Translations under genes and position numbers: made by a program | Source of the DNA: Clostridium sp. AF15-31 | GTDB taxonomy: Bacteria > Bacillota > Clostridia > Lachnospirales > Lachnospiraceae | Assembly: GCF_003461625.1 (NCBI RefSeq) | Contig: NZ_QTXL01000001.1 | Span: forward strand, 496,001-560,000 | Reading direction: 5' to 3' | Length of the DNA: 64,000 nt | Part shown: piece by piece, positions 6,111-61,983 of the stretch | Numbering within the stretch: position 1 is the stretch's first letter | How the letters are laid out: the number at the start of each line of letters is the position of its first letter | The notes under the pieces: model-generated | The model's database searches: none | What the model was told of the DNA's origin: nothing | What the model saw: only the letters and a program-made list of their open reading frames with translations

Positions 6111-6303
6111 GACAGAATAACCTCAATAATAAAAGTATAATTTTAAACAGTAACGGATGACGGCAGATTCACAGATGTGTCGTGCGGTATTACATGATCG
6201 AACTGTTCGGACATACTATAGCATAAAAGAAATCCGAAAAAAAAGACATAATTTTATTTAGAGATGAAGGTTGCAAAAACTGTATAAAAACAAATGGAAT
6301 CTG

Positions 6304-6333
6304 TTGACAATTTGCACAAAAAAGGCATATAAT
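6304..6333 (+). promoter_or_regulatory. consensus promoter of metG
   Basis: TTGACA (6304-6309) and TATAAT (6328-6333) are separated by 18 bp, giving a leader of about 80 bases before the ATG at 6422. No T-box specifier stem or T-box sequence is recognisable in that short leader. Confidence 0.75.
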
Positions 6334-6421
6334 TTTTGTTATCTGAGCACATAAGATTGCCAGAAAAAATAGCGCAGACATTTCATTCGTGTTTGTAGTT
6401 TTATCAAGGAGGGTTTTTGAA

Positions 6422-8458: not shown

Positions 8459-8498
8459 TTAATTTAATAGAAAACGCAGCCCTACAGATATGAAGTCG

Positions 8499-8527
8499 TT
8501 GATTTATTGGGTGGTCTATGATAGAAT
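8499..8527 (+). promoter_or_regulatory. promoter of glmS
   Basis: TTGATT (8499-8504) and TAGAAT (8522-8527) are separated by 17 bp. Transcription would begin near 8534, about 50 bases before the ribozyme cleavage site. The position fits a self-cleaving leader. Confidence 0.55.
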
Positions 8528-8574
8528 TTTAATGTCTGCTTATAGTATGGAGGAAAGCAGATTTTGAAAGATTT

Positions 8575-8740
8575 AGAAATCTTAGCGCCATGTCCCTTTG
8601 GATCAACGACGAAAAGGGTGACGAGGATAGAGGTTATCGAAAATTCGGCGGATGCCTCTACGCAGAGTCCGGATGCGCACATGCATGCCAAATATGGAAG
8701 AGATTCCAAAACAAAGCAGCATGACCGGATAATTTGATGA
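8575..8740 (+). ncRNA. glmS self-cleaving ribozyme-riboswitch
   Basis: The leader of glmS contains the conserved ribozyme core: AGCGCC at 8584-8589, TGACGAGGATAGAGG, TTATCGAAAATTCGGCGG and ATGCCTCT in the right order (8619-8666). They are followed by a P4-like stem TGGAA/TTCCA and ACAAAG (about 8695-8715). Cleavage is expected between A8584 and G8585. In the family glucosamine-6-phosphate acts as cofactor, and cleavage leads to decay of the glmS mRNA, so the gene is shut off when product is plentiful. The core match and the position before glmS make this secure. The 3' limit is approximate. An open leader reading frame crosses it (see findings). Confidence 0.93.
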
Positions 8741-8829
8741 TGCAGTAAAATATCTGACGGACGATAAAGACAGATATACGAACAGAAAAAGAAATATGCA
8801 TCATAAGCCGAAAGGAGATAATTGAATAT

Positions 8830-10647
8830 ATGTGTGGAATCATAGGTTTTACAGGCAGAAAGCCGGCGAAGGATATCCTGATCGATGGACTGGAGCGGTT
8901 AGAGTACAGAGGCTATGACAGTGCGGGTATTGCACTTTTAAATGACGATGATACATTAACGATCCGGAAGAAGGCAGGAAGAGTCAGCGAACTCAGGGAA
9001 CTGTGTAAGGATGGAGATTATTCATCGACTTGCGGTATCGGACATACAAGATGGGCAACACATGGTGGAGTTACAGATGCGAATGCGCATCCGCACAGAT
9101 GTGGAAATGTTGCTCTTATCCACAATGGTATCATTGAGAATTACAGTGACATCATAAGAGAGTATGGACTGGCAGATAAGCTTGTATCAGAAACAGATTC
9201 TGAAGTTGTGGCAGCCCTGCTGGATACTCTGTATGATGGTGATCCGATCGCAGCGATTCGGAAGGCGGTTAAGATAATTGCGGGTTCATTTGCGCTTTGC
9301 ATTATGTTTGCAGACAGACCTGGGATCATATATGCAGTAAGAAATGTCAGCCCGATGGTAGCAGCACACAGCGAAGAAGGATCTATCATTGCGTCAGACC
9401 TGACAGCGATCATTTCATTCTCAAAAGATTATTTTGTTGTGCCGGAATATCATATCCTTACAATGACACAGGAAGGAATCCGGGTTGAGGATCTGAAAGG
9501 CAATGAAGTAAAGCCACAGATGTTAGAGATTACATGGGATATTACAGCCGCTCAGAAAGGTGGATTTCCACATTTCATGTTAAAAGAGATTTATGAGCAG
9601 CCGGAATCCCTGAGAAATACGATCACACCAAGAATTGTGAATTCACTCCCTGATTTTACAGAAGACGGGATTGATGATGAAGTATTTAAAAATTGTGAAA
9701 ATATCACAGTCATTGCATGCGGAACTGCTATGCATGCCGGAATCGTAGGAAAAGCAATGATTGAATCAGAGCTTCGTATACCGGTAAATGTGGAGATCGC
9801 ATCAGAATTCCGTTATAAAGAACCACTGATCAATGAGAAGACATTGGTTATCGTAACTTCCCAGTCGGGAGAGACAATTGACACATTGGAAGCAATGCGT
9901 CTGGCAAAAAGATGTGGTTCCAAGGTTATTTCGATCGTAAATGTAAAAGGGTCTACGATCGCAAGAGAAAGTGATTATGTGTTATATACACATGCCGGAC
10001 CGGAGATTGCAGTTGCAAGTACAAAGGCATATTCGGTTCAGATGGCGGCAATGTATTTAATCGGCTGCAGGCTTGGACTTGTAAAAGGAATTTATTCAGA
10101 AGAGCAGGCAAAGGAATTTATCAGCAAACTGTTGGGAACAATTCCGGTAATAGAAGAAACCCTGCTTCAGGCAGATGAAGTCAAGACTGTTGCTAATTAC
10201 ATAAAAATGGCTCCGGATGCATTCTTTATCGGAAGGGGCATGGATTATACTCTTTCACTGGAGGGGGCTCTGAAGTTGAAGGAGATATCCTATGTTCATG
10301 CGGAGGCTTACGCAGCAGGTGAATTAAAACATGGTACGATCGCTCTGATCACAGAGAATGTACCGGTTATCGCGTTAGCGACACAGCCGGCTGTATACGA
10401 GAAGATGGTTTCAAATATAAGGGAAGTAAAAGCCAGGGGAGCATATGTTATTCTAATTAGTATGGGTGACGAAGTTACTGACACCCAGATATGTGATAAG
10501 CATATAAGAATACCTAAGCAGGATAGTTTATTTACTGTATTTGCAGCGGCTGTTATTTTGCAGTTGATCGCATACTATACATCAGATGCAAAAGGGCTGG
10601 ATGTAGATAAACCGCGTAATCTTGCCAAGTCTGTTACTGTAGAGTAA
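8830..10647 (+). CDS. glmS: glutamine-fructose-6-phosphate aminotransferase (isomerizing)
   Basis: GlmS makes glucosamine-6-phosphate from fructose-6-phosphate and glutamine for peptidoglycan and amino-sugar synthesis. The 605-residue product starts MCGIIGFTG, with Cys2 as the glutaminase nucleophile. It has the class II amidotransferase domain (about 1-220, GHTRWATHGG) and two SIS domains (about 285-420 and 455-595). It ends in the conserved tail DKPRNLAKSVTVE. An AAAGGAGA ribosome site precedes the ATG. The gene is controlled by the ribozyme immediately upstream. The FHA gene begins 43 bp downstream with no terminator between, so it is probably co-transcribed. Confidence 0.98.
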   Translation: MCGIIGFTGRKPAKDILIDGLERLEYRGYDSAGIALLNDDDTLTIRKKAGRVSELRELCKDGDYSSTCGIGHTRWATHGGVTDANAHPHRCGNVALIHNGIIENYSDIIREYGLADKLVSETDSEVVAALLDTLYDGDPIAAIRKAVKIIAGSFALCIMFADRPGIIYAVRNVSPMVAAHSEEGSIIASDLTAIISFSKDYFVVPEYHILTMTQEGIRVEDLKGNEVKPQMLEITWDITAAQKGGFPHFMLKEIYEQPESLRNTITPRIVNSLPDFTEDGIDDEVFKNCENITVIACGTAMHAGIVGKAMIESELRIPVNVEIASEFRYKEPLINEKTLVIVTSQSGETIDTLEAMRLAKRCGSKVISIVNVKGSTIARESDYVLYTHAGPEIAVASTKAYSVQMAAMYLIGCRLGLVKGIYSEEQAKEFISKLLGTIPVIEETLLQADEVKTVANYIKMAPDAFFIGRGMDYTLSLEGALKLKEISYVHAEAYAAGELKHGTIALITENVPVIALATQPAVYEKMVSNIREVKARGAYVILISMGDEVTDTQICDKHIRIPKQDSLFTVFAAAVILQLIAYYTSDAKGLDVDKPRNLAKSVTVE

Positions 10648-10690
10648 ATGGGACTTGAGTGGCTGGAGAATAATTGCGGAGGGCGTTATT

Positions 10691-11755
10691 ATGAGCACAG
10701 AGAAGACATATTTGTGCGATGAGTACAAATTATATTTTAAGATTGAAGATGATGTCCAGATCCTTCATAATGAAGTCGAGCTGTACAATACATCATTTGT
10801 AGGAAACAACAGCTTTTGCCATGAAGAGTATATTGACGGACAGAGAGCACTTACATATTCGATTCCGGCCATGATTACGATGAATCAGTTTATTACAAAG
10901 AAGATTCACAGGGACGAACTGGTGGACATTATGTTCAGCATAGCTGATCAGTTGATGTACCTGAAGGCGAATGATATGCCACTCGGTAAGGTTATCCTGA
11001 ATATTGGATACATGTATCTGAATCTGGAGGATATGAGTGTTCAGCTTGTGTTCCTTCCAATTGATAAACCGATGGAAAAATGCAATATGGAGAAGTTTGT
11101 CAGAGATCTGGTAAACAAGCTTGATTTTGCAAATAAGAAAGCTTCAGACTGTGGATATGAACTGATCAAATTCTTTGATCATAATCCATCCTTCTATCTG
11201 TCAGAGTTCTACAAGATGATCACAGATATGAAGAATGACAACAATGTTCATCCGGAGGATGAGCAGCATTTCATTGTCAGACCGCAGAAAGCAGAGACAA
11301 TAGAAGATACGGAAGTTCCATTACAGACAACCGTTGTATCAACTCCAAGCTTTAAACTGGCAAAGGAAGTTAAGGATTATTCCGGTAATGATATCGGATT
11401 TGATGATGATTCAGACATTACATCAACGACTGTTTTGACGAATGCATCCAAGAGCAAACCGGGTCCTGTTATCGTAAGAACCAGAACCGGTGAGCGGATT
11501 AAGATCGACAAACCGATCTTTTGTATCGGTAAGTCTGCACAGGGTGTTGATTATCAGGTAACAGACAACAATTCTGTCAGCCGTCGTCATGCATATATCA
11601 TCAACGTCAATGGCGTTTATTATCTGCGTGATAACAAATCAACCAATCACACCTATCTTGGTGGCAAGATCATCAACAGCGGCACAGACATGATGCTGAT
11701 CGATGGCAGCAAATTCAAATTAGCAAACGAGGAATTCACATTCCGCGAGAAATAA
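10691..11755 (+). CDS. FHA-domain protein with DUF6382-like N-terminus
   Basis: The 354-residue soluble protein has an N-terminal domain (about 1-170) resembling DUF6382 and a C-terminal forkhead-associated domain (about 255-350) with SRRHAYI and NKSTNHTYLGGK. In the family these bind phosphothreonine. The middle (about 185-250) looks like a flexible linker. GCGGAGGG seven bases before ATG 10691 sets the start, and the in-frame TTG at 10655 has no ribosome site. A second protein of the same architecture, with two added membrane helices, lies in the Tad locus (38360-39733), which hints at Ser/Thr kinase signalling linked to the pilus. No kinase gene is in the window. Confidence 0.85.
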   Translation: MSTEKTYLCDEYKLYFKIEDDVQILHNEVELYNTSFVGNNSFCHEEYIDGQRALTYSIPAMITMNQFITKKIHRDELVDIMFSIADQLMYLKANDMPLGKVILNIGYMYLNLEDMSVQLVFLPIDKPMEKCNMEKFVRDLVNKLDFANKKASDCGYELIKFFDHNPSFYLSEFYKMITDMKNDNNVHPEDEQHFIVRPQKAETIEDTEVPLQTTVVSTPSFKLAKEVKDYSGNDIGFDDDSDITSTTVLTNASKSKPGPVIVRTRTGERIKIDKPIFCIGKSAQGVDYQVTDNNSVSRRHAYIINVNGVYYLRDNKSTNHTYLGGKIINSGTDMMLIDGSKFKLANEEFTFREK

Positions 11756-39774: not shown

Positions 39775-42700
39775 ATGAAACAATACAGAAATAAAATTTT
39801 ACTGATCGTACTGGTGGGAATTCTTCTGCTGATAAATCTGCCATTTCATGCGATCCTTCAGACAGCATCCATGGGAGGAGATGCGGAGCAGGCGGTAACG
39901 CAGTTGTTTGAAAAGAATGCGACAGCAACGGATACGGATGCAGACAGGGCAACTCCGGAGGATGCAGACAGAGCAACTGTGGAAGACGCAGATGGGGTGG
40001 CTGCGAAAGCTGTAGATGGGGAGGCTGCAGAAGATACCGACAGAGCAACCTTGGAAGATGCAGATGCGATGACCACGCAGGATATAGCATTATCATATGA
40101 AGATCAGGCAAAACAGATCGCTACGATCTCAGATGCCATATCGAGAGATGTATATACTCCGGATATGAAAGTAGAAATAAAGAAAGAGAAAAAGTCGTAT
40201 ATATTTAATATAGATGCATTGGCGACGGTAATGTCCTTTCCGATGTTACATTCAGAATTTGTCGTTGGATACAGACTGGGAAGAACAGAAGCGGGAGATA
40301 CCTGCAGAGATTTCCGGATCTTTCAATATCATGGCATTACGGATTATGAGAAACTGTTTTCCGTATATTGTGGAGACAAGGATCTGGATGTTCCGTGGTA
40401 TGGAGAATATGTTTCGGATGGAAAGCATTTGCAGGGAACAGCAGCAACTGTATACAGTGATGATACGACAGATGGTTATATACATGCAGGCAGCGGACTG
40501 TTAACAGCCGATATCCGGAAAGCATTGTATCAGGGATATAAGAACAGGCAGTCTCAAAGCGCATTACAGGATAATCTGAATGCGATCCGGCATCATGGAA
40601 AAAGCATGAGCGGAGAAGTTCCATATACGAGAGCGCAAGCAGAGATCCGGATCGGAACAGAAACTCCAAAGACAGAGCAGATTGATATATCACCGGGGCA
40701 GCCGGAGACGCGATGGAAATACCGGTATACCATACACATGGAAGAAGAGAGTTTGTTAAGCACTGTGTCTCCGGATGGAGTATATGCAAAAAGAACGAAG
40801 ATGCGTACGGTCACAGGAGGTCAGAATACGTTTCATATCATAGTGCCGGATACAGATATTAAACTGTGGGTATGTACGGACTGGAAAGGTTCGATTGCAG
40901 ATACGGACTGGAAAGCATACCGGTCAGGAGAAGAAGCTGTATTAAAGACAGGAAGCAGATATTTCTTTACTGCCGGTACGGATAAGAAGGGTGTGAGCAG
41001 ACTGTCAAAGACCTTTGCCGAACGGGATGGGTTTACAGCTTATGCTGTCTGCCCGGACAACAAAGAGATTCAGACCTGCTTTGCAGGTGTGCTTTATGAA
41101 TATGCAATAGAGATGGTGATTAACTGGGGAAGTGAATTAAAAACCGGAAAACTGCATCTGACAAAGCTTGGTGATGGTTCCTTGAGTAATCTGAAAGGAA
41201 TAAAATTTTACCTTTATAAACTGGACGAGCCATTTGCAGATCTGTCAGAGGGGAAAGCGGTAAAGATCGGAACATATACGGTTAATTCCAAAGGAAAAGG
41301 TGTGCCAACTTATATTACGGAAAAAGGCAGATTTTATGGAGCAAAAAGTAATTATGCCGGAGAGGATATAGATGGATCCACATGCCGGAATATCTACAAT
41401 CTGCCACCGGGCTATTATATGCTGCATGAGGATGCTGAACTGGCACTGGCAAGAGGATATCTGCCCGCGATAGACCATTATTATGAAATTACAGATAACC
41501 AGCTGGAATATGAGTTTGTCATTCAGAATGTCCGGGGCGGGCTCAGTCTTCAAAAAACCAGTGACTCTCCGGAACTTACAGGAGCAGATGGCAAAACGGA
41601 TGCATATAGTCTGCAGGGAGCCAGATATAATGTGTATAAGGTTGGGAAAAAGAATGATACATCAACCGATGCTTATGTCTGCACCTTTACAACCGATGCA
41701 TCCGGAAAAGGAATTGTTACAAAATATAATTCGGATGCAGGATATTATCCGGTATATGGTTCTGATAACCGGATATATGAAGTGCGCGGAGTTCCGGTTG
41801 GTTGCTGGTATTACATTGCGGAAATAGGGAAAAAGAAAGGGTGGAATGGAAATGAATATTCCTATGCCAGAGGTTATATTGTAAATAAAGAGGATAAAAA
41901 AGCGGCTTCCTACTATCAGAAGTGGATCTATCTGGATAAGGAGGATGGTGGAATCGGAGTTTCAGAAAATTTGGAGAAATATCCCAAGCAGCAGATCGAT
42001 GTACTGGAATCGCCGATTACGATCGGAATTCAGCTTCATAAAAGCAGTGCGATGAAAGAAATTTCCGATATGGGTGGATATACATTTGCCGATATTCAGT
42101 ATCAGGTATACATGGCGGACAAGAATGGAAGGCAGGGAACCGGAAATCTCTATGTAGGTACATTTACAGTGCAAAAGGATGGAACGGGAATTGTTACAGA
42201 TATAAACACGAAATTTATTCCGACCGGAGGAAATAAAACGATCGTTTCGCTTAAGAAAAAAGGGACAGATACGATCTCCGGACTACCGTGTGGAAGCTAT
42301 TATGCAAAGGAAACAAAAACAAACCGTTATTACAGGCTGAATACAGATCCGGTAAAAAAAGAATGTCTGTCCAGTGGCGGAAGAGAAACAGGAAAAAAAG
42401 AGATCGAGCATGTGATCGAAGTTACAGATCAGCCAAATACCGGAGAACTGTATCTGGAAAAGAAGAGCGCCGGTGAAGAATGGACGGATGAAAATACAGC
42501 ATATTCGTTATTACATGCAGAATATAGTGTTTATATGGTGTCAGGAAAGAATGCTCCATATAAAGAAGAAAATCAGGTTGGCATATTTACGACAGAAAAA
42601 ATGAATGCGGCAAATACCGTGATTGGAATACCGGAGATTAGGAATTCCTGCGGAACCGGAAATGCATTCCGAATGATATCAGGAGAGGTCGTTTCCATTC

Positions 42701-44373
42701 AGGCAGATAAGAGTAAGCATTGTTTTACCGGATTGCCATTTGGCTGGTATGCAGTAAAGGAAAAGCGTGCTCCAAAAAATTACAAACTGGATGCGGATGT
42801 ACATTATATTTGTATATCCCCGGATACGGTGGGAAACAAGATTAATGCAACCATGCAGCTTGCAGAGAAAGAAATGGTATATCAGGGAAAACTGTCACTG
42901 ACAAAATATGACAGAGAGAATGGAACCGGAACTGCAAAATATGGAGCATCTCTTGCGGATGCAGTCTTTCAGGTGCGGTATTATAAGGGACTCCTGCAAA
43001 AAACAGAATTGGCAGCATCTGCTGCATACCGAACCTGGTATATTAAGACAGTATATAACGAGCAGACCGGAAGTTATGAGGCAAAGCTGGATGCAGCTTA
43101 TCTTACCGGACAGAGTGATCCTCTATTTACGGATAAAAAGACAGGTGCAGTAATTCTTCCGGCTGGAACCGTGGTCATAACAGAATACCAGCCACCAAAG
43201 GGGTATATCCTGCCGGGACATGGACAGGGTTATATCGAAGTAACCGGACTGACAGGAGAGAAACAGCAAATTACCGGAAATGAAATTGTACTCCATCTGG
43301 ATGCAGGAAATCCGAATAAAGAGCTGCAGACTTTTTCTGTGGAGAGTGGGAATGTCATAGAACCGGAATTGATAAAGGTGTACGAGCAGGCAGAACGGGT
43401 GGATATTGCATTTGACAAGATCAATGCAGGAACCAGAGAATCAATGCAGGGAATTGTATTTCGAATTTCGTTGCTGGATGAAGCAGGAAATCCTGTTGAG
43501 AGCCATATTGCGGTAACTGGAGTAAATGGACGTTTTGATTCGGCCGGACGTAAGGAAAGTGGTAAATTCAATATCAATGATGATATCTATGAATACAACC
43601 AGATGCAGGAAGAAAGTGTATGGAAGGAATATGATATGACAGCCGGGATCTGGTTTTGTGGAGATGAGAGCACACAGCGGGAAGTTTTCGATGAAGATAT
43701 TATGGCAGATGGAGCTACAAAAAGCGAAGAAAACACATCCATAAGAGAAGCTTCAGAAACAGAAAAAGCGGATCTGGGAGCGTTGCTGCCGGGAACTTAC
43801 ATGATCGAGGAGCTGCCTTGTAAAGGTAACCGGGGATTTGTAATAATGCAGCGTCAGATCGTGGACATTGATAGTGCAGAGACAATCCGGGAGCTTGGTA
43901 CATATGAGAATCAGTCTTCGGAAGATACAACAGAACAGACGACAACCGAAACCACGACTGGTGACACAACGGAGACAACAACCGAAGCTACGACCGGGGA
44001 CACAACGGAAACCACAACCGAGTCTACAACCGAACTGACGACTGAGATCACGACCGAATTGACAACAGAAACCACAACTGAGGCGACAACCGAGATTACG
44101 ACCGAGGACACAACGGAAACTACAACCGAGTCTACAACCGAACTGACGACTGAACAGACGACGGAGATCACAACAGAAACTACAACAGAGCTGACGACCG
44201 AACCGGACACCGGAGACAGGAAGACTCCCCCGGTCAGAACCGGTGACTCGTCAGGAGTGATCCTGTTTTCTTATATCGGGCTTGGAGCAATGTTTGGCGC
44301 AGCAATTCTTGTGATCGTAAAAAGACGGCAGGGAAAACATGGAAAAGATAGACCGGGCAACAGGAAACATTGA
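39775..44373 (+). CDS. large Cna-B/SpaA-type surface adhesin with variant sorting signal
   Basis: The 1532-residue product has an N-terminal membrane/signal helix (about 8-24), an acidic Thr/Ala/Asp-rich stretch, and a possible TQ thioester-like or unknown head (about 150-440). About six Cna-B/SpaA repeats then run from about 455 to 1380, recognisable by LTKLGDGS...LKGIKF(Y)LY, LSLQKTSDS, LYLEKKSAG and LPPGYYMLHE motifs. A Thr/Glu-rich stalk (about 1381-1480) leads to PPVRTGDSS, a hydrophobic helix (about 1495-1515) and a basic tail. This is a cell-wall sorting signal without a classical LPXTG. Isopeptide-forming Lys and Asn residues are expected but were not assigned. It closes the Tad locus. 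Confidence 0.85.
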   Translation: MKQYRNKILLIVLVGILLLINLPFHAILQTASMGGDAEQAVTQLFEKNATATDTDADRATPEDADRATVEDADGVAAKAVDGEAAEDTDRATLEDADAMTTQDIALSYEDQAKQIATISDAISRDVYTPDMKVEIKKEKKSYIFNIDALATVMSFPMLHSEFVVGYRLGRTEAGDTCRDFRIFQYHGITDYEKLFSVYCGDKDLDVPWYGEYVSDGKHLQGTAATVYSDDTTDGYIHAGSGLLTADIRKALYQGYKNRQSQSALQDNLNAIRHHGKSMSGEVPYTRAQAEIRIGTETPKTEQIDISPGQPETRWKYRYTIHMEEESLLSTVSPDGVYAKRTKMRTVTGGQNTFHIIVPDTDIKLWVCTDWKGSIADTDWKAYRSGEEAVLKTGSRYFFTAGTDKKGVSRLSKTFAERDGFTAYAVCPDNKEIQTCFAGVLYEYAIEMVINWGSELKTGKLHLTKLGDGSLSNLKGIKFYLYKLDEPFADLSEGKAVKIGTYTVNSKGKGVPTYITEKGRFYGAKSNYAGEDIDGSTCRNIYNLPPGYYMLHEDAELALARGYLPAIDHYYEITDNQLEYEFVIQNVRGGLSLQKTSDSPELTGADGKTDAYSLQGARYNVYKVGKKNDTSTDAYVCTFTTDASGKGIVTKYNSDAGYYPVYGSDNRIYEVRGVPVGCWYYIAEIGKKKGWNGNEYSYARGYIVNKEDKKAASYYQKWIYLDKEDGGIGVSENLEKYPKQQIDVLESPITIGIQLHKSSAMKEISDMGGYTFADIQYQVYMADKNGRQGTGNLYVGTFTVQKDGTGIVTDINTKFIPTGGNKTIVSLKKKGTDTISGLPCGSYYAKETKTNRYYRLNTDPVKKECLSSGGRETGKKEIEHVIEVTDQPNTGELYLEKKSAGEEWTDENTAYSLLHAEYSVYMVSGKNAPYKEENQVGIFTTEKMNAANTVIGIPEIRNSCGTGNAFRMISGEVVSIQADKSKHCFTGLPFGWYAVKEKRAPKNYKLDADVHYICISPDTVGNKINATMQLAEKEMVYQGKLSLTKYDRENGTGTAKYGASLADAVFQVRYYKGLLQKTELAASAAYRTWYIKTVYNEQTGSYEAKLDAAYLTGQSDPLFTDKKTGAVILPAGTVVITEYQPPKGYILPGHGQGYIEVTGLTGEKQQITGNEIVLHLDAGNPNKELQTFSVESGNVIEPELIKVYEQAERVDIAFDKINAGTRESMQGIVFRISLLDEAGNPVESHIAVTGVNGRFDSAGRKESGKFNINDDIYEYNQMQEESVWKEYDMTAGIWFCGDESTQREVFDEDIMADGATKSEENTSIREASETEKADLGALLPGTYMIEELPCKGNRGFVIMQRQIVDIDSAETIRELGTYENQSSEDTTEQTTTETTTGDTTETTTEATTGDTTETTTESTTELTTEITTELTTETTTEATTEITTEDTTETTTESTTELTTEQTTEITTETTTELTTEPDTGDRKTPPVRTGDSSGVILFSYIGLGAMFGAAILVIVKRRQGKHGKDRPGNRKH
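43914..44212 (+). repeat. Thr/Glu-coding low-complexity repeats
   Basis: About 100 residues consist of units such as TTE(T/A/L/I)TTE, encoded by mixed ACA, ACG and ACC codons. They probably form an extended, perhaps glycosylated, wall-spanning stalk. Confidence 0.85.
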
Positions 44374-44477: not shown

Positions 44478-44558
44478 ACTATATAGAAAAGGCTGTCCTG
44501 TAAAGTAAATAAGTGCGCTATTATGGATATATTATTAAAAGGGGACAAAAACTAATAA

Positions 44559-44587
44559 TTGCTATCAATCACCATTTCGGATATAAT
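44559..44587 (+). promoter_or_regulatory. promoter of dnaX-ybaB-recR
   Basis: TTGCTA (44559-44564) and TATAAT (44582-44587) are 17 bp apart, 31 bp before the dnaX start. No SRP RNA was recognised in this gap, although ffs often lies near dnaX in Firmicutes. Confidence 0.7.
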
Positions 44588-44617
44588 ATCTTTAGTTGTA
44601 TTTTGGAGGAAACCGTC

Positions 44618-46357
44618 ATGTCTTATATGGCATTATATCGTAAATGGAGACCGGATACTTTTGAAGAAGTAAAAGGCCAGGATCATGTTGTAACAACACT
44701 AAAGAATCAGATTATAAATAACAGGATCGGACATGCATTTCTCTTCTGCGGAACAAGAGGAACCGGAAAGACATCGATAGCAAAGTTGTTTGCAAAAGCA
44801 GTAAACTGTGAGCATCCGGTAAACGGAAGCCCATGCAATGAATGTGCGGCATGTCGTGCGATCGCAGATGGATCATCTATGAATGTGATCGAGATCGATG
44901 CAGCATCAAACAATGGTGTGGATAATATCCGTCAGATCCGGGAGGAAGTACAGTATTCACCATCAGAAGGAAAATATAAGGTATACATTATAGATGAGGT
45001 TCATATGCTGACACAGGGAGCGTTTAATGCTCTGTTAAAGACATTGGAGGAACCACCGTCTTATGTCATTTTTATACTTGCAACAACAGAATCCCATAAG
45101 ATTCCGATCACAATATCTTCCAGGTGTCAGAAATACGAGTTCCGGCGGATCTCGGTGGAAACAATCAGTGACCGTCTGATGGAGCTGCTTGGAAGAGAAC
45201 AGATTGCGGCAGAGAAAAAAGCAATTGATTACGTTGCCAAGGCTGCAGATGGATCAATGCGTGATGCACTCAGTATTCTGGATCAGTGTATCGCATTCAA
45301 CATTGGCAAGGAGCTTACTTACGAAAATGTACTGGATACGATCGGAGCAGTTGATATCGATGTATTTGCCAGATTGTTAGATTGTGTGATTCGGCTGGAT
45401 GTTGTCGGTGCGATCGATCTGGTGGATGAGGTAGTATGGCAGGGACGGGAATTGTCCAGATTTGTATCAGAATTTACATGGTTCCTTCGAAATGTATTGT
45501 TGGTGAAGGTTTCACCGGAGGCAGATCAGAAGCTTGATATGTCGGCGGAGAATCTGGAACGGTTAAGACAGCTTGCTGCACAGCTCGAAACAGATGCACT
45601 TATCCGGTATATCAATATATTTTCGGACACCTCTGCAAATATCAAATATGCAGTACAGAAGCGTATTGTTTTAGAACTTGCAGTGATCAAATTATGCAAG
45701 CCTGAGATGGAAAACGATTACAGCGCGCTTCTTGACCGGGTCAGAGTTCTGGAACAGAAGTTAGAGAATGGAGCCGCCGGATCGGTGGTTAGCGGGAATA
45801 ATAACGGTGAAGGAAGCTCAGCATCGGCAGGCGTTACAGCATTGGCTGGCGAGGCAGTGCAGGGAGCCGGAGCAGTATCACAGGAACTGCTGGATCAGAT
45901 CTGTGCAAGACTGAAGCAGGAAGGAATGCAGATAGGAAATGCACCTGCGATGGGAGATGCAGAGATAGAAGCGGCATCGAAGAAGCTGTCCGAGCAACTG
46001 AAAAAAGAACTTCCGGAAGCAAATTACAATGAATTAAAAGAATTCGTAGAACAATGGGATATCATTATGGAAGGATATCAGAATATTACGAAGAAGTTTC
46101 TGGAAAAAGCAAGGATCAATATGAACGAAGCCAGAGATGGTCTGTATCTGGCATATGTCCAGAATGAAGAGAACAAGCAGGCAATCGCTTATTTTGAAGG
46201 GAAAGAGCGGATGGCGGCATTGCGAGAGCACATCGAACAGGTGACCGGCAGACAGGTGAAGATCGAACTGAAGGTCGTGTCGAAGAACAGTGAAGCGGCA
46301 CAGGAGATCGAGGCGAATGACCTGTCGAAGATTAATTTTGCTATTCAGTATGAATAA
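44618..46357 (+). CDS. dnaX: DNA polymerase III subunits gamma/tau
   Basis: DnaX is the clamp-loader ATPase of the replisome. The 579-residue product starts MSYMALYRKWRPDTFEEV. It has Walker A FCGTRGTGKTSIAK (about 43-56), the zinc site CEHPVNGSPCNECAAC (about 64-79), Walker B YIIDEVHML and the SRC sensor ISSRCQKYE (about 167-175). A Gly/Ala-rich linker (about 385-425) precedes a tau-like C-terminal domain. TTGGAGG nine bases upstream fixes ATG 44618, and the longer frame from 44513 is not supported. No convincing frameshift heptamer was found. Confidence 0.96.
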   Translation: MSYMALYRKWRPDTFEEVKGQDHVVTTLKNQIINNRIGHAFLFCGTRGTGKTSIAKLFAKAVNCEHPVNGSPCNECAACRAIADGSSMNVIEIDAASNNGVDNIRQIREEVQYSPSEGKYKVYIIDEVHMLTQGAFNALLKTLEEPPSYVIFILATTESHKIPITISSRCQKYEFRRISVETISDRLMELLGREQIAAEKKAIDYVAKAADGSMRDALSILDQCIAFNIGKELTYENVLDTIGAVDIDVFARLLDCVIRLDVVGAIDLVDEVVWQGRELSRFVSEFTWFLRNVLLVKVSPEADQKLDMSAENLERLRQLAAQLETDALIRYINIFSDTSANIKYAVQKRIVLELAVIKLCKPEMENDYSALLDRVRVLEQKLENGAAGSVVSGNNNGEGSSASAGVTALAGEAVQGAGAVSQELLDQICARLKQEGMQIGNAPAMGDAEIEAASKKLSEQLKKELPEANYNELKEFVEQWDIIMEGYQNITKKFLEKARINMNEARDGLYLAYVQNEENKQAIAYFEGKERMAALREHIEQVTGRQVKIELKVVSKNSEAAQEIEANDLSKINFAIQYE

Positions 46358-54914: not shown

Positions 54915-54943
54915 TTGACATTCCGCATACAAGGCTATAAGAT
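54915..54943 (+). promoter_or_regulatory. consensus promoter of the riboswitch-giant protein unit
   Basis: TTGACA (54915-54920) and TAAGAT (54938-54943) are 17 bp apart. Transcription would start near 54950, just before the riboswitch. Confidence 0.75.
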
Positions 54944-54954
54944 AAACTATGTAT

Positions 54955-55130
54955 GTTCTATATTGGATCTGCTCGGACGTGTCTTTAAATGTCCGATCAG
55001 GGGGAAATTCGGTGAGAATCCGGTGCAACCGCCATTACTGTGTTAAGATCATAAGATGGTCTTTTAGTCAGAATACCCGCAGATTTATTCTACATACAGC
55101 TTTTGGGCGAGGGAAAAGCAAGATTTAATT
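54955..55130 (+). ncRNA. cobalamin riboswitch
   Basis: The leader shows the conserved cobalamin elements in order. They are a first stem CGGAC/GTCCG (about 54973-54995), GGGGGAAATTCGGTGAGAATCCG with GTGCAACCGCC (about 54999-55033), ACTGTG, a variable hairpin (AAGATCATAAGATGGTCTT), and the B12 box AGTCAGAATACCCGC (about 55068-55082). In the family binding of adenosyl- or methylcobalamin represses the gene downstream. Beyond the box, GCTTTTGGGCGAGGGAAAAGC and GGGAA/TTCCC pairings (about 55098-55136) could be the expression platform, probably acting on translation since no T run is seen. The only gene that follows is the giant protein at 55177. Confidence 0.9.
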
Positions 55131-55176
55131 CCCAGCTTATAAAAAAATATACAATAGAAGAAAGGAATCGAAACGA

Positions 55177-58100
55177 ATGAAACGAATCAGGACACTGGTG
55201 CTTTCGTTTTTATTTGCGTGCGCAGTTTTATTCGTGCCATTTGCAGTAAATGCAGGTTATGGTATTCAGAATGTTGCGGCAGCGGAAGAAGATGAAAGTA
55301 CGACCGATTATAGCACAAAATATGTTGTGCTGTCTCTTGAGGGCTTTACGATCGGACAGGGATTTTATATCACACCGACCCGTATGTCTTATGAAGAGAT
55401 TGGAAATGTCTGGAAACAGGAAGGGATAGACATTGATCTGTCTAAATTGACCGTTTCACAGGCAACTTATGCATTTTTCAAGAAAGCAGGACTTCAGACA
55501 AAGCCTGCAGGATCAAGTGCCTATAATGACAGCAACTTTTATCTGGCAAATATCAAAGGCATTGATAAAGGAACTGTAAAAGTTCCAACAGCACTCTTGG
55601 ATGCATATAAGACACGTAACAATGGAAATGATCTGGAACTGGAGGAGAAGACAGGTACAGACCTTGAAGAACATGATTACACATCATGGTCCGGCTGGAT
55701 GATCACAGTTGATAATGTGCCTTGCAATACAAGCGCAGGCGCATATCTTGTAGATCAGGGAACCGGGGCAGATACCAATGTTCTCCGTTGGCAGTTTACA
55801 CTTGCCGGTTATGGAGCAGATATTGGATGTGGATTTGAAGGCTATGAAGCATATTATGTAACCCAAGACAAGACAGAGTTATATACACTTTATGCAGAGA
55901 ATGAAGAAGAGATCGCAAAGGATGCCTCATTAAATGCAGAACTTCAGGCAGTTATGGCAGATCTGGATGCATCAGCAGATGATGTGGCAGCTGCTGTAAA
56001 GAAGATCAAAGCATTAGAAGAGAAACAGGTATCGATTAAGATGAACAGTAGTGTTCCATATATGACACTTACAGATGCAGATGGAAATACAGTGGCGGCT
56101 GGAGATCCGGATAGTAATTATGTATACACAGCGAAGCTTGCAGAAGGTACTTATCGCTTATCAACATATAAAATGAGTGGTACTAATAAAGTTGATATGG
56201 GTTCAATTGACCTGATCGTAACCGATGAAGCAGAGCAGTCATATGCAGTATATAGTCTGTCAGGTATTGCATGTACAAATAAGGATGCCGGCAGTGGAAA
56301 ATTTTGGCAAGAAGGAGAAGACTTTACTTTTAATGTAAAGGTAGTATCTCCTGATAATGTTGATCGTCATGCTACACTTGGTTTGATGCAGGCGGAAACA
56401 AGTCAGAAAGCAGCTCAGTATGCAGTGCCTTTTTATTATGCGGATATGGTATCTGTAACTGTAACACCTAAGGGAGACCATGCACAGAATTATATAGAAA
56501 AGACAGTTTCAAAAACACTTACAGCAAACAGTTCATATGGGTATTCGATCAGTGCACCGGAAGCCAGAAAAGTAAGTGTGACATTCCCGGAAGGAGCAGA
56601 ACTTAGACTTGGAACATTGTCTACATATTATATTTATAAAGATGAACCGGGAACAAAGATAGAAGCCAAAGAGCCGGGATATGAGACATATGAATTTACT
56701 GTCGGAGCTGGTATTACATATTACTATCGTGTGACAGGTGCCGGTGGTGTTACCTACTGGGATTGGTTCTCTACCAATAAAGATGCAGATTATATGGTTA
56801 GTAAGGCGGATATGTATATCGGGGATGATTCTTTTAATCCGGATACTATATATCATGATATGTCTCAGAATAAGTATGATGTAGCAGATATTTATCTTAC
56901 ATCAGATGAACATGGATACCTTTCTATGAAGAAGGGTGAGACATACAGTCTGGAATGTTTCCGTAACTGGCAGGCGATCGAAGGTACTTCGAATGCTAAG
57001 AGTGCAGAACCGGATTATCATTACACGGTTATTGATGAGAATGGAAATCCATCAAATGATGTGATCACAGTTACACCGGGAGCACATTCAGAAATAGCGG
57101 AGATTCAGGCGAAATCCGAAGGAACAGCAATTCTGCTTGTGACCTACGATGCACAGATTAATATGCAGGGATATACGAAGTATACCAAGTTTAGTGCAAT
57201 ATGGCCTGAAAACACCGGTGTTGTAGTGGTTACTGTTGATAAGGATGGCACAGCTATTCAGACCAACATGACCATAAATGAAGGTAAAAATAAAAAAGAG
57301 GAAAAAGTAACTGGCGACAGACTGGATGCACAGCTGGATGTTCTTTATTATGAGGCAGGAACAGACGGAGCTGAGTATACATTTACACCGGAGAGTGGAG
57401 TATCCGTATCTGTCCTTCGTCCAGAGATCATAGACAATAAGCTGACATACGGCGGATTTTCTGCAAAGAACATCACAAGAAATTCAGATGGCAGTTATAC
57501 AGTCGCAGGGCTTACAGAAGGACCAAATATTGTTAAAGTTACAAAGAATGGTGTCAGTACTTATCAGGTGATACGTGCAAAAGAAGTTGCAGTATCATAC
57601 AAATATAAAGATGCAGATGGAAATGAAATAACCGCAGATGAATTGACAGCGGGTGATTCCATTGAGATCAGCTATGGAGAAAGAAGTGAAGACGGTAAGC
57701 GTTCTTATAATGGCTTATACAATCCTGCCAGTAAATTAGCAGGTGTGTATAATATGGATGCAGCAATCTGCTTTTTTGACACAACAGGAACAGAATATGT
57801 TGGAAAACTAAACCAGTATATGTTTGCATCAACACCGGCTTCACAGACGATTACGGTTACGATTCCGACTTATTTTGCAGGTGATACATTCCGTCTGACA
57901 GGATGTCTGAAAAACGGAATAGGTGGATGGAGTGCTTATGGTTCACCATACGGTTCTCATCGGGCAGTTCGCCATGACACAGGTGTACCGGTACAGATGG
58001 CAGCCAGCCGTCATACCGCTTATATGTGTAATCTTCCGGATGTAGAATTCAAGCTTGTAGCTTCTGATTTCGTACCGGTAACATTGAATATAACAGACAG

Positions 58101-61100
58101 TCAGACGAAAAAACCGGTTACAGATTATACAATTCAGATCTTAGATGAAGATAAGAAAGAAACAAAAGTAACGGATGGAGTTTTCAAGGGATTTGTAGGA
58201 AAAACATATTCATATGTCATTTGTGCATCAGGTTATATATATAAGACAGGAACGATTGAGATTCCGGAGGATACAGACAGTATTACAAAGACGATCCGTC
58301 TGACACCTGCCGATGCTCAGGCGTGGGATGGACAGACTATGACTGAACCGAAACAGTCAGATGGTGTATACCAGATTGGAACCGGAGCAGAACTTTACTG
58401 GTTTGCAAATGAAGTAAAGACAAAATACACGATCAATGCGGTTCTGACTGCAGATATCGATCTTGCAGGATATAAGTGGACCCCTGTCAAACCGAACAGC
58501 TCAAGTTATGGTTATGCAGGAACATTTGATGGACAGGGGCATACAGTCAAGAATCTGTATGTGGACAATGTTCAGGATGCCGGCTTATTCGGATCAGTAA
58601 CAGGTCAGATCAAGAATCTGACAGTAGAAGGAAATATTTCTGCAAGCACAGCAACACATGCCGGCGGAATTGCAGGTATGCTTAAGGAAAATGCAGGAAA
58701 AAATGTATTGATCTCAAATTGTGTTTCAAAGGTTAATATCACATTTACAGGAACTTCAAATTATGTTTATGCAGGTGGTATCGTTGGATATTGCGGAGCA
58801 AATTCAGATACCAGTACAAATGTGATTGACAACTGTAGCTATTACGGCACGATCACTGCTAAAAATGGCAGTTGCGCAGGTGGTATTCTTGGTGCAATGA
58901 CAAATAGAAATGTTACAATCAAGAATTCCTCAAATTATGGAACGGTTATAGCAAAGAATAACGTAGGTGGTATTCTTGGTATTCATAATGAAGCCAGTTC
59001 AAAAGCACCTGCCGGTAAGATCATTGACTGTTATAATGCCGGTTCAGTATCAGGTCAGACAAATGTAGGTGGAATTGCCGGATGCTTTAAAGGCAAGGCA
59101 GCAAACAACGCAGGTGTAGAGATGTCAGGTTGTTATAGTGGCGGAGAAATTCTGAGCACCAGCCAGACAAAGGAACAGACAATATTTGCAGGACAGTCAG
59201 CATATATGACATTATCTGATTCTGTTTATTCATGTGCAGATGAAGCAAGCAGCACATTTACAGAGGATCAGGCAGTATATGTATCTCCTGCTGATATAGC
59301 AGCAGTAAAGAAGCTGACAGCAGAAACAGTTTCAAAGAAAGCTGATAAGGATACGCTGGATCGTATAGCTCCAGTTATCAATGTGCTTGCAAATGTTCCG
59401 TTATCAGCAGAAGATCAGACATTTGTAGATCTTTATAAAGAGTTACAGGCAGCGGTTGCTGATCAGAAACATGTTAAAGTCGGTGTATATGACTATACAG
59501 CAACAGCAGCGGGAATTAAGGGTGCATCTGAAAATGGTGTGATCCTTGATGATGTAGAAGTTGATGCAGCGACTGCAGTGGATGCTGTCGAGAAGGCGTT
59601 AAAGGAGAACAACATTCCATATGTTCTGGCAGATACAGGATATGGACCATATATGGAATCCATCAATGGACTGACAGTTCAGGCTGAATATACGATGTCA
59701 GGATGGATGTTCTCATACAACAAAGATGATTTCTCCAATATGGGCTTATCAGCTACAACGATCCAGGATGGAGACGTATTAGAATTCCACTATCAGCTTA
59801 CAGGTGGCGATGTTGCATCTGCATATTCAGGTCTTCCAACATTGAAAGAGCTTATAATTGGAAGTAGTCAGATGAACTTTGAGGTATCATCTACATACGA
59901 TGCTCAGTGGAATCAGATCATTACTTATAGGATGAATGGAGAAGAACTTGCCGGAACCGGTACAGAGAATGATCCATTTATTGTAAACGTAGATTTATTC
60001 AAGGACACAGACCTTACAGCTCTGCCAGTCAGCTATAAGACAGAGGCAGATTCACATTATGTAACAGTTGATGGACTTTCCGATGTTATGGATCTGACAG
60101 ATGGAGTGCTGTGTCATGTAACATCCGGAGCAGGAAGAACTGCATGGTACAAGATCACTGCGGCAGCAGAGACAGAAAAGGCATTGACAGATGCAAATAC
60201 AAAGGTAGTAGTTGCAGATGCAGTTTATACCGGAGAAGAATTAAAACCGGAAGTAAAGGTATATGTAAACGGTAATCTGATAACAGAAGAAAACTATGAT
60301 GTCGTATTTGAAAATGCGCAGAATGCCGGAACAGCTACCTGTACGGTAACAGGTAAGGGCGAATTCTCCGGACAGGTTCAGACAACCTTCGAGATCAAGA
60401 AAGCAGAACAGCAGATCACAAATGTACCGGAAGACCGGAAGGTCGTATACGGACAGAAGGCAGATATCGAAGTTGCAGCAGGAGCAAAGACAACTCCTGT
60501 ATTATCATCTGATAAAGAAGCTGTTGTATCAGTAACAGAAGATGGCAAGCTTCAGATCAATGGTATCGGAACAGCAGTTATTACAATTACAGCACCGGAG
60601 AGTGACAATTATCTGGCAGCTACAGCTTCCTTTAAGGTTACAGTTATGGGAGATCTGAGCAAGGCAACAATTGCTCCGGTTGCTTCTGTAGAATATACCG
60701 GAAAGGTGATCGTACCGGAACTTACAATCACAGATGGCACATATCAGCTTGTAAAGGATGTTGATTATACGGTTTCAGGACAGCGTGTATCTGTCGGAAA
60801 GGCTACAGCAACGATTCGTGGAATCGATGGAAGATATGCAGGTTCACAGACAGTTACATTTGAAATTGTGAAGGCAAAACAGGAAATCCAGGTTGCATCT
60901 AAGAGCATAGAGGTAACAGAAGGTACAGATCCGTTTGTTCTTGCAGCCGATGGTCATGGTACATTGACATTCGTTTCATCGGCACCTGCAGTTGCAGAGA
61001 TCGATGATACAGGTCTTGTAACAGTAAAGGCAGCAGGATTTACAGATATTACGATCAAGACTGCCGGAACAGCAAATTACGAAGCTGCAGAAACAGTAGT

Positions 61101-61983
61101 TCGTCTGACTGTTAAGAAAAAGGCGGATACAGAAGATCCTGATAAGACAACAGAAGATTCTTCTGATTCAACTACAGAAGAACCGACAACAGAGAAACCA
61201 AGTACAGAAGAGCCAACTACAGAGACTCCGGATCAGAAGGTTACACTGACTGCCAAAAACACTGTTGTAACAGTTCCAAGTGTTACATATACAGGTAAGG
61301 CACAGAAACCGGCTGTAAAGGTTACAGTATCCGGCAAGGCATTATCAACCGATGATTATTCTGTAGCATATTCAAATAACAAGAATGCAGGAATCGCAAA
61401 GGTAGTTATTACCGGTAAGGGCAACTATACCGGTAAAGTAGAAAGCACATTTGTGATCAAGAAAGCATCACAGACGATCCAGAAGCAGACAGTATATGCA
61501 TACAGTAAGTATGTGAAGATGAAGGCTTCTGCAAAGGGCAAGGTTACTTATACATCTTCTAATAAGAAGATCGCAACTGTAAATAAGAAGACCGGCTTTG
61601 TTACCGCAAAGAAGCCAGGTAAGGTACAGATCAAAGTAACAGCCGCAGCAACAGCAAATTACAAGAAGAGTACAGGAACGATCACCTTGATTGTTGTACC
61701 TGCAACACCGACTGTAAAGAAGGCTGCTGCATATAAGACCAAGGCAATCAAGGTTTCTTACAAGAAGGTATCAGGTGCAAGTGGTTACCAGATCACATAT
61801 GCAACAAATAAAGCATTCAAGAATGCAAAGAGTACATATGTAAGCAGCAAGAAGTCAAGTGCTGTGATCAAGAACCTGAAAAAGGGTAAGAAATATTATG
61901 TCAAGGTAAGAGCATATAAGAAGATCAATGGAAAGAAGTTCTACAGTGTTTACAGTGGTAAGACATCTGTAAAGACAAAATAA
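55177..61983 (+). CDS. giant secreted protein with two transcobalamin-like (DUF4430) modules
   Basis: The 2268-residue product has a signal peptide (about 1-26) and no membrane helix or sortase motif after it. Visible parts are a DUF4430-like module at about 45-228 (LEGFTIGQGFYITP, SGWMITVDN, LRWQFTLAGYGADIGCG), a helical linker, and a long beta-rich region with FIVAR- or Ig-like segments (about 290-1040). A GLUG/right-handed beta-helix-like region follows (about 1050-1355; FDGQGHTVKNLYVDN, GGIAGML). A second DUF4430 module lies at about 1430-1552 (YTMSGWMFSYNKDD, DGDVLEFHYQ). After it come Ig/MBG-like repeats (about 1670-1985), a Thr/Glu/Pro linker, more Ig-like repeats and a basic FN3-like end (about 2175-2268). 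DUF4430 is the C-terminal domain family of transcobalamin and intrinsic factor. With the riboswitch this suggests corrinoid capture. The Lys-rich end may hold it to the wall. Confidence 0.88.
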   Translation: MKRIRTLVLSFLFACAVLFVPFAVNAGYGIQNVAAAEEDESTTDYSTKYVVLSLEGFTIGQGFYITPTRMSYEEIGNVWKQEGIDIDLSKLTVSQATYAFFKKAGLQTKPAGSSAYNDSNFYLANIKGIDKGTVKVPTALLDAYKTRNNGNDLELEEKTGTDLEEHDYTSWSGWMITVDNVPCNTSAGAYLVDQGTGADTNVLRWQFTLAGYGADIGCGFEGYEAYYVTQDKTELYTLYAENEEEIAKDASLNAELQAVMADLDASADDVAAAVKKIKALEEKQVSIKMNSSVPYMTLTDADGNTVAAGDPDSNYVYTAKLAEGTYRLSTYKMSGTNKVDMGSIDLIVTDEAEQSYAVYSLSGIACTNKDAGSGKFWQEGEDFTFNVKVVSPDNVDRHATLGLMQAETSQKAAQYAVPFYYADMVSVTVTPKGDHAQNYIEKTVSKTLTANSSYGYSISAPEARKVSVTFPEGAELRLGTLSTYYIYKDEPGTKIEAKEPGYETYEFTVGAGITYYYRVTGAGGVTYWDWFSTNKDADYMVSKADMYIGDDSFNPDTIYHDMSQNKYDVADIYLTSDEHGYLSMKKGETYSLECFRNWQAIEGTSNAKSAEPDYHYTVIDENGNPSNDVITVTPGAHSEIAEIQAKSEGTAILLVTYDAQINMQGYTKYTKFSAIWPENTGVVVVTVDKDGTAIQTNMTINEGKNKKEEKVTGDRLDAQLDVLYYEAGTDGAEYTFTPESGVSVSVLRPEIIDNKLTYGGFSAKNITRNSDGSYTVAGLTEGPNIVKVTKNGVSTYQVIRAKEVAVSYKYKDADGNEITADELTAGDSIEISYGERSEDGKRSYNGLYNPASKLAGVYNMDAAICFFDTTGTEYVGKLNQYMFASTPASQTITVTIPTYFAGDTFRLTGCLKNGIGGWSAYGSPYGSHRAVRHDTGVPVQMAASRHTAYMCNLPDVEFKLVASDFVPVTLNITDSQTKKPVTDYTIQILDEDKKETKVTDGVFKGFVGKTYSYVICASGYIYKTGTIEIPEDTDSITKTIRLTPADAQAWDGQTMTEPKQSDGVYQIGTGAELYWFANEVKTKYTINAVLTADIDLAGYKWTPVKPNSSSYGYAGTFDGQGHTVKNLYVDNVQDAGLFGSVTGQIKNLTVEGNISASTATHAGGIAGMLKENAGKNVLISNCVSKVNITFTGTSNYVYAGGIVGYCGANSDTSTNVIDNCSYYGTITAKNGSCAGGILGAMTNRNVTIKNSSNYGTVIAKNNVGGILGIHNEASSKAPAGKIIDCYNAGSVSGQTNVGGIAGCFKGKAANNAGVEMSGCYSGGEILSTSQTKEQTIFAGQSAYMTLSDSVYSCADEASSTFTEDQAVYVSPADIAAVKKLTAETVSKKADKDTLDRIAPVINVLANVPLSAEDQTFVDLYKELQAAVADQKHVKVGVYDYTATAAGIKGASENGVILDDVEVDAATAVDAVEKALKENNIPYVLADTGYGPYMESINGLTVQAEYTMSGWMFSYNKDDFSNMGLSATTIQDGDVLEFHYQLTGGDVASAYSGLPTLKELIIGSSQMNFEVSSTYDAQWNQIITYRMNGEELAGTGTENDPFIVNVDLFKDTDLTALPVSYKTEADSHYVTVDGLSDVMDLTDGVLCHVTSGAGRTAWYKITAAAETEKALTDANTKVVVADAVYTGEELKPEVKVYVNGNLITEENYDVVFENAQNAGTATCTVTGKGEFSGQVQTTFEIKKAEQQITNVPEDRKVVYGQKADIEVAAGAKTTPVLSSDKEAVVSVTEDGKLQINGIGTAVITITAPESDNYLAATASFKVTVMGDLSKATIAPVASVEYTGKVIVPELTITDGTYQLVKDVDYTVSGQRVSVGKATATIRGIDGRYAGSQTVTFEIVKAKQEIQVASKSIEVTEGTDPFVLAADGHGTLTFVSSAPAVAEIDDTGLVTVKAAGFTDITIKTAGTANYEAAETVVRLTVKKKADTEDPDKTTEDSSDSTTEEPTTEKPSTEEPTTETPDQKVTLTAKNTVVTVPSVTYTGKAQKPAVKVTVSGKALSTDDYSVAYSNNKNAGIAKVVITGKGNYTGKVESTFVIKKASQTIQKQTVYAYSKYVKMKASAKGKVTYTSSNKKIATVNKKTGFVTAKKPGKVQIKVTAAATANYKKSTGTITLIVVPATPTVKKAAAYKTKAIKVSYKKVSGASGYQITYATNKAFKNAKSTYVSSKKSSAVIKNLKKGKKYYVKVRAYKKINGKKFYSVYSGKTSVKTK

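Follow-up and report, generated by a model that had tools for sequence, protein, structure and literature searches.

Secreted transcobalamin-like proteins of low-GC Gram-positive bacteria, encoded in operons with CbiO and CbiQ and often with a second paralogue, were predicted to be B12 scavengers by Burroughs et al. 2007 (PMC1796856; this and the other papers cited are drawn on in part). DUF4465 has been identified as BtuJ, a measured B12 binder (PMC12751083, PMC13398666). Surface capture of cobamides by Firmicutes is little known; BtuH homologues are reported in three of them, one near an ECF-like (energy-coupling factor) transporter (PMC8941943). In L. rhamnosus a DUF4430 gene adjoins rtpR (PMC9963975); the same paper names a product 'Additional lipoprotein component of putative cobalamin ECF transporter', whose identity with the DUF4430 protein is not stated there. 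Here we analysed a 64,000-nucleotide stretch of Clostridium sp. AF15-31 (contig NZ_QTXL01000001.1, positions 496,001 to 560,000; the window), in which a first-pass annotation had proposed that a cobalamin riboswitch controls one giant surface protein with DUF4430 domains, which captures corrinoids before uptake. As far as sequence can carry it this proposal is supported, by the riboswitch, the DUF4430 family match and its predicted fold, and the ECF transporter genes of relatives. We also find that the protein contains a large core shared with the B12-uptake operons of Bacteroidales.

The Rfam cobalamin covariance model (RF00174) recognised the aptamer over its full length (model positions 1-189), scoring 43.1 bits (gathering score 31.5, E 1.6e-7), and the B12 box AGTCAGAATACCCGC lies inside the alignment. 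The element is thus a member of this riboswitch family, as annotated, albeit a short form in which 7 nt stand in for 56 consecutive model positions. The gene that follows it, in the same orientation, is the single open reading frame (ORF) of the 2268-residue protein. The consensus promoter that had been claimed stands only in part: the TTGACA-17-TAAGAT site is a good match and its TTGACA is also present in the relative at locus L001, but one such site was found where shuffles of the region give 1.1 on average, and alone it is not above chance. Much of the leader from aptamer to ATG is conserved in L001; the best-matching segment of the L001 protein has 59% identity. Within the leader, AUUCC (55128-55132) could pair either with GGGAA (55111-55115) or with GGAAT (55164-55168) ahead of the start codon; the spacing from GGGAA to AUUCC is 17 or 18 bases, and that from AUUCC to GGAAU is exactly 36 in both the window and L001. 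A scan of the leader region for intrinsic terminators found none, which disfavours transcription termination as the switching mode. Because of this we favour control of the translation start as the probable mode, in which the pairing would act as the switch.

Pfam matched DUF4430 (PF14478) to the whole protein with 46.6 bits (cut-off 23.8) in two stretches, together with two stretches of Big_2 and a sub-threshold match to fn3. The module nearer the C-terminus (C-module) scored 40.1 bits when excised and is a member of DUF4430; its best stretch in the whole protein covers residues 1465-1540. By structure comparison it is predicted to have the beta-grasp fold of transcobalamin and intrinsic factor, with 12-20% identity over the module. 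The module near the N-terminus (N-module) is linked to the C-module by profile-profile comparison with hhalign (54 columns, 96.7% probability, E 4.1e-10), which also joins it to small DUF4430 proteins. The two DUF4430 modules of the first-pass annotation are hence upheld, with the N-module as a divergent one. A comparison of the DUF4430 profile with Protein Data Bank (PDB) sequences was set aside in favour of the fold comparison; it returned 38 unrelated chains, with the printed alignments in charged linkers.

The core lies between the modules. A family-alignment scan of genome contigs, with both search patterns at the start of the GLUG-like region, gave a sample of at least 79 loci (numbered L001 onwards), many of which encode Bacteroidales proteins matching residues 284-1344, beside Firmicutes relatives recorded as Clostridiales. 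Searching the ORFs of 38 loci (L001-L037 and L054) with phmmer, we found the core in 29: five from Firmicutes (L001, L002, L009, L017 and L018) and 24 of Bacteroidales type, among which we count L007 and L014, titled only 'uncultured bacterium'. In 45 further or overlapping loci, whose matches are confined to the GLUG-like region, phmmer found no core. The Bacteroidales-type proteins share with the window protein a homologous core of more than 600 residues, 29-37% identical to that of the window over ~700 residues, and the columns of the motifs LVTYDA, AIWPENT, PA.K..G.YNM and HR are conserved in at least 85% of 54 sequences. Repeated exchange of the core between phyla was rejected as an explanation, as the core tree requires one split only (L023 was omitted for its weak match, and the group labels of the P proteins were assumed from their search, not from taxonomy). 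Kinship with BtuH drew no support: a core profile compared with PDB sequences gave eight chains, GLUG- or IgA1-protease-like plus weak others, and no BtuH chain at E up to 10, in a comparison made by profile only. Pfam calls Glug above its cut-off in the relative L026 and does not call it in the window protein.

Direct Rfam scans of the loci placed RF00174 upstream of the core gene, on the same strand, at 23 of the 29 core loci. The other six (L003, L014, L018, L021, L022 and L025) lie on contigs that start inside the operon or, for L018, 162 bases before the gene; the sole riboswitch found in the L018 genome sits on a different contig. A gene for a BtuB-like TonB-dependent receptor is present at 20 of the 24 Bacteroidales-type loci, the remaining four being cut. 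The BtuG-like gene beside the core is named from its position and from a DUF5074 match of 24.0 bits, below the cut-off of 27.2. Where the Bacteroidales-type core gene is complete (21 loci), DUF4465 is fused to the core in 11 and encoded by an adjacent gene in four; in the other six, whose operons have the riboswitch and the BtuB-like and BtuG-like genes, it was found neither fused (Pfam) nor adjacent (phmmer). For L007, L030 and L032, and for the separate genes of L014, L026 and L035, DUF4465 was identified by phmmer alone, and the single query used overlooked two fused copies, which means that adjacency may be undercounted. The annotation had called the window protein a functional counterpart of BtuG. 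The likeness goes further, in that the core has homologues among Bacteroidales proteins whose genes adjoin BtuB-like and BtuG-like ones, but the protein is not homologous to BtuG itself. Its gene does not stand behind BtuB-like and BtuG-like genes as in Bacteroidales, and no BtuB-like gene was found in the window. Separately, an Oscillospiraceae ORF at L028 (6135-10085) combines a DUF4465-like stretch with a GLUG-like region, by phmmer only, and the BtuJ domain may thus occur in a Firmicute too.

For transporters in the window, we used five phmmer queries taken from relatives, one each of CbiQ-like, ECF ATPase, ECF S, BtuF-like and BtuB-like type. At three of the five Firmicutes core loci (L001, L002 and L009), the core gene is followed downstream on its own strand by genes for a CbiQ-like protein and a fused ABC-ABC-S ECF protein. 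In L001 and L002 the gene of a small DUF4430 protein, with a hydrophobic N-terminal stretch by eye, lies in between; in L009 a 666-residue ORF on the other strand intervenes. The S part of the fused L001 protein matches the ECF S-component family PF07155 above cut-off (47.4 bits) and PF12822 below it. No transporter genes were found by phmmer at L018, and only ATPase-like ORFs on the other strand at L017. At L034, which lacks the core, two divergent cobalamin riboswitches (5862-6733) face different genes, one encoding a 3046-residue DUF4430/GLUG-like protein and the other a fn3-type protein, a small DUF4430 protein and the ECF genes. Tandem cobalamin riboswitches on the same strand were also seen at L009 (2212-3347) and L023 (4359-5078).

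The loci with GLUG-like matches but neither core nor, mostly, DUF4430 served as a control. RF00174 was found in two (L029 and L033) of the 34 scanned out of these 45 loci, and these are the only two of the 45 with DUF4430 by phmmer; none of the 32 scanned loci without DUF4430 has it. This rejects the idea that any GLUG protein accompanies the riboswitch, and because the GLUG-only loci with RF00174 are those with DUF4430, the riboswitch appears to go with the core or with DUF4430 rather than with the GLUG-like region as such. L034 and L037, which have DUF4430 and GLUG-like regions without the core, also carry riboswitches. The contig of L033 is recorded as Bacteroides sp., with the riboswitch followed by a GLUG-like protein that has DUF4430 (7399-11708); either this contig is mis-binned or DUF4430 has a form that occurs beyond Firmicutes.

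We also examined DUF4430 at large. At E 0.001 or better it occurs in 72 of 150 genomes from the family of L001's genome, with 108 matches (two below the Pfam cut-off). The riboswitch lists for the 72 genomes hold at least 92 sites over cut-off, in 59 genomes; one sub-cut-off riboswitch (G114) was excluded. At least 54 of the 108 matches, in 44 of the 72 genomes, lie within 10 kb downstream of a listed riboswitch, against a chance expectation of ~0.26 under an assumed genome size of 3 Mb. Among the sites listed, the reverse placements are rare (one match with a riboswitch downstream on the same strand, two with one on the other strand), and 46 of the at least 92 riboswitches lead to DUF4430 within 10 kb. 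By ORF size, again among the sites listed, the link holds for 31 of 61 matches below 300 residues, 15 of 35 from 300 to 999 and eight of 12 of 1000 or more. The relation between DUF4430 and the riboswitch is an association, not a rule.

Our favoured explanation, to which we give a probability of about 0.75, is that the giant protein is a cobalamin-repressed surface protein with which this Gram-positive captures corrinoids. Because the fold predicted for part of it is like that of B12 carriers and its core is common to B12-uptake clusters of distant bacteria, the protein probably captures B12 extracellularly. At low cobalamin the leader would stay open and leave the start site free. The protein would be secreted and stay attached to the wall through its basic C-terminal tail, whose 178 residues include 44 Lys/Arg and zero Asp/Glu, and which we infer to bind anionic wall polymers; the giant protein has no LPxTG-like motif, and Pfam lists for it no SLH domain, which relatives L009 and L017 have. 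Cobamides would be bound by both beta-grasp modules, possibly jointly with the intervening core, and handed on to a membrane-tethered small DUF4430 protein and an ECF transporter; relatives encode these two downstream, and this genome would carry their genes at another place.

Several observations weigh against this explanation. In the window itself the five queries found no B12-transport gene at E up to 0.01, as the annotation had noted, though distant transporters could escape them. The leader fold is not unusually stable (z -1.36). The excised N-module scores 21.6 bits, under the 23.8 cut-off, and is in parts poorly modelled (confidence 48-75). The transcobalamin alpha toroid is absent: Pfam, run on the full-length protein, lists no such family at E up to 1. 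Loci L023 and L024, which with L028 were not counted as core loci, carry riboswitches where phmmer finds neither core nor DUF4430 (L028 has none), so the GLUG-like region has some riboswitch link of its own. The link to DUF4430 covers such proteins generally, mostly small ones, and among the sites listed 54 of the 108 matches have no riboswitch within 10 kb upstream. Finally, the SLBB superfamily, home of the transcobalamin-like domains, is thought to bind various ligands (PMC1796856).

These last two points also favour a reading in which the ligand of the DUF4430 modules has nothing to do with B12, the riboswitch merely tying an adhesin to B12 status. We consider this unlikely given the strength and direction of the DUF4430-riboswitch link, its absence from the 32 control loci without DUF4430, and the exchange of DUF4430 for the B12-binding DUF4465 on the same core. 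Capture of cobalt or another metal would fit a riboswitch class that also controls cobalt transporters, and the CbiQ-like character of the neighbouring T component; with the PF07155 match of the L001 S part, and BtuB-like and BtuG-like genes adjoining the Bacteroidales relatives, it is very unlikely. The target might instead be loaded carriers, whether host haptocorrin or intrinsic factor or the vesicles or surface proteins of neighbours. A long multi-Ig architecture suits protein binding and B. theta vesicles bear BtuJ-bound cobamide (PMC12751083), yet the sequences contain no pointer to such a partner, and we give this reading only a very slight chance.

The part played by the core is a separate question. 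In a narrower form of the favoured explanation, which has close to even odds, the core and GLUG-like region serve purely as a stalk or adhesin, extending the binding modules away from the wall or onto mucus, and only the beta-grasp modules touch corrinoids. The extent of core identity and the conserved motifs exceed what a spacer ought to need, and the six complete core genes in riboswitch, BtuB-like and BtuG-like operons where no DUF4465 was found also speak against a mere scaffold, subject to the possible undercount of adjacent genes. We raise, tentatively and with the balance somewhat against it, the possibility that the core is itself an undescribed corrinoid-binding or corrinoid-handing module, older than the Firmicutes/Bacteroidales split of its forms, which is combined in Gram-positives with a clamp of transcobalamin type and an ECF transporter and in Gram-negatives with BtuJ, BtuB and BtuG.

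Features of the riboswitch and of the giant gene, in window coordinates
Feature	Position	Strand	Basis
Promoter-like site TTGACA-17-TAAGAT	54915..54943	+	10/12 matches
Cobalamin riboswitch aptamer RF00174	54952..55098	+	Covariance model, 43.1 bits
Candidate expression platform	55099..55176	+	Pairing options and spacing shared with L001
Predicted secreted surface protein, 2268 residues	55177..61983	+	ORF, ATG start; next gene on riboswitch strand
N-terminal signal peptide region, ~residues 1-36	55177..55284	+	Sequence read by eye
N-module, divergent DUF4430, residues 47-230	55315..55866	+	21.6 bits alone; hhalign 96.7%
Core, residues 284-1045	56026..58311	+	Successive Ig-like beta sandwiches; unnamed in Pfam
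GLUG-repeat-like region, residues 1046-1340	58312..59196	+	Matches to 3n6z and IgA1 protease chains
C-module, DUF4430, residues 1434-1560 (Pfam stretch 1465-1540)	59476..59856	+	Transcobalamin beta-domain fold, predicted
Beta-sandwich domain following C-module, ~residues 1548-1666	59818..60174	+	Structure prediction/comparison
Basic tail with Big_2 and sub-threshold fn3 match	61447..61980	+	178 residues

The protein's own cluster (P0001) has 1932 member sequences and a 54% identical one (P0022) has 4608, sizes that mark the family as a frequent one in the data sampled. Twelve plasmid records gave partial matches below 60% identity, none covering 80% of the protein. The giant gene is followed by a short ORF with a homing-endonuclease-associated repeat (PF18780; 62147-62500). 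Elsewhere in the window, a glmS ribozyme-riboswitch (RF00234, 71.9 bits, 8573-8733) precedes a 605-residue ORF (8830-10647), and a 1532-residue ORF with a SpaA prealbumin-like domain (39775-44373) lies just before a DNA polymerase III gamma/tau-like gene (44513-46357).

One gene joins a domain of transcobalamin type and a B12 riboswitch with a module common to Bacteroidales B12-uptake loci. The prediction is that bacterial DUF4430 binds corrinoids, as DUF4465 turned out to do; and if the core binds B12, it would be a capture device common to Firmicutes and Bacteroidales and fitted to two unrelated uptake machines. The idea of B12 scavenging is not new, having its precedent in PMC1796856. The new element is the Bacteroidales-shared core with the exchange of DUF4465 and DUF4430 on it. 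In a literature search outside which most subscription journals fell, and in the parts of the papers seen, we found no work that ties bacterial DUF4430 to cobalamin riboswitches or names the core, and neither the core, its two kinds of partner nor the riboswitch counts in print.

With the 2007 transcobalamin-like clade (PMC1796856), which we take as Pfam DUF4430, the window protein shares secretion, a beta-grasp with a hairpin after the helix and predicted B12 scavenging, and its relatives share operons that contain CbiO/CbiQ genes and encode a further protein of this kind. It differs from that clade in its large Bacteroidales-shared core, two flanking beta-grasp modules, lack of an alpha toroid and possession of a cobalamin riboswitch; the word riboswitch is absent from the examined text of PMC1796856. 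The alpha/alpha toroid belongs to transcobalamin, intrinsic factor and haptocorrin, whereas this is a bacterial surface protein without it. With BtuG and BtuH of Bacteroides thetaiotaomicron it would share riboswitch-controlled capture of cobamides at the surface (PMC8941943, PMC10404256); BtuH2 has Ig-like domains and a B12-binding domain (PMC8941943, PMC10404256), BtuG is a beta-propeller and BtuJ is DUF4465, and Pfam lists neither a propeller family nor DUF4465 for the window protein. The Bacteroidales core proteins (L004, L005, L010 and others, many with a BtuJ-type DUF4465) are encoded behind BtuB-like and BtuG-like genes and often end in DUF4465, where the window protein has DUF4430, Big_2 and a basic tail; what the two have in common is the core, the GLUG-like region and the cobalamin riboswitch upstream.
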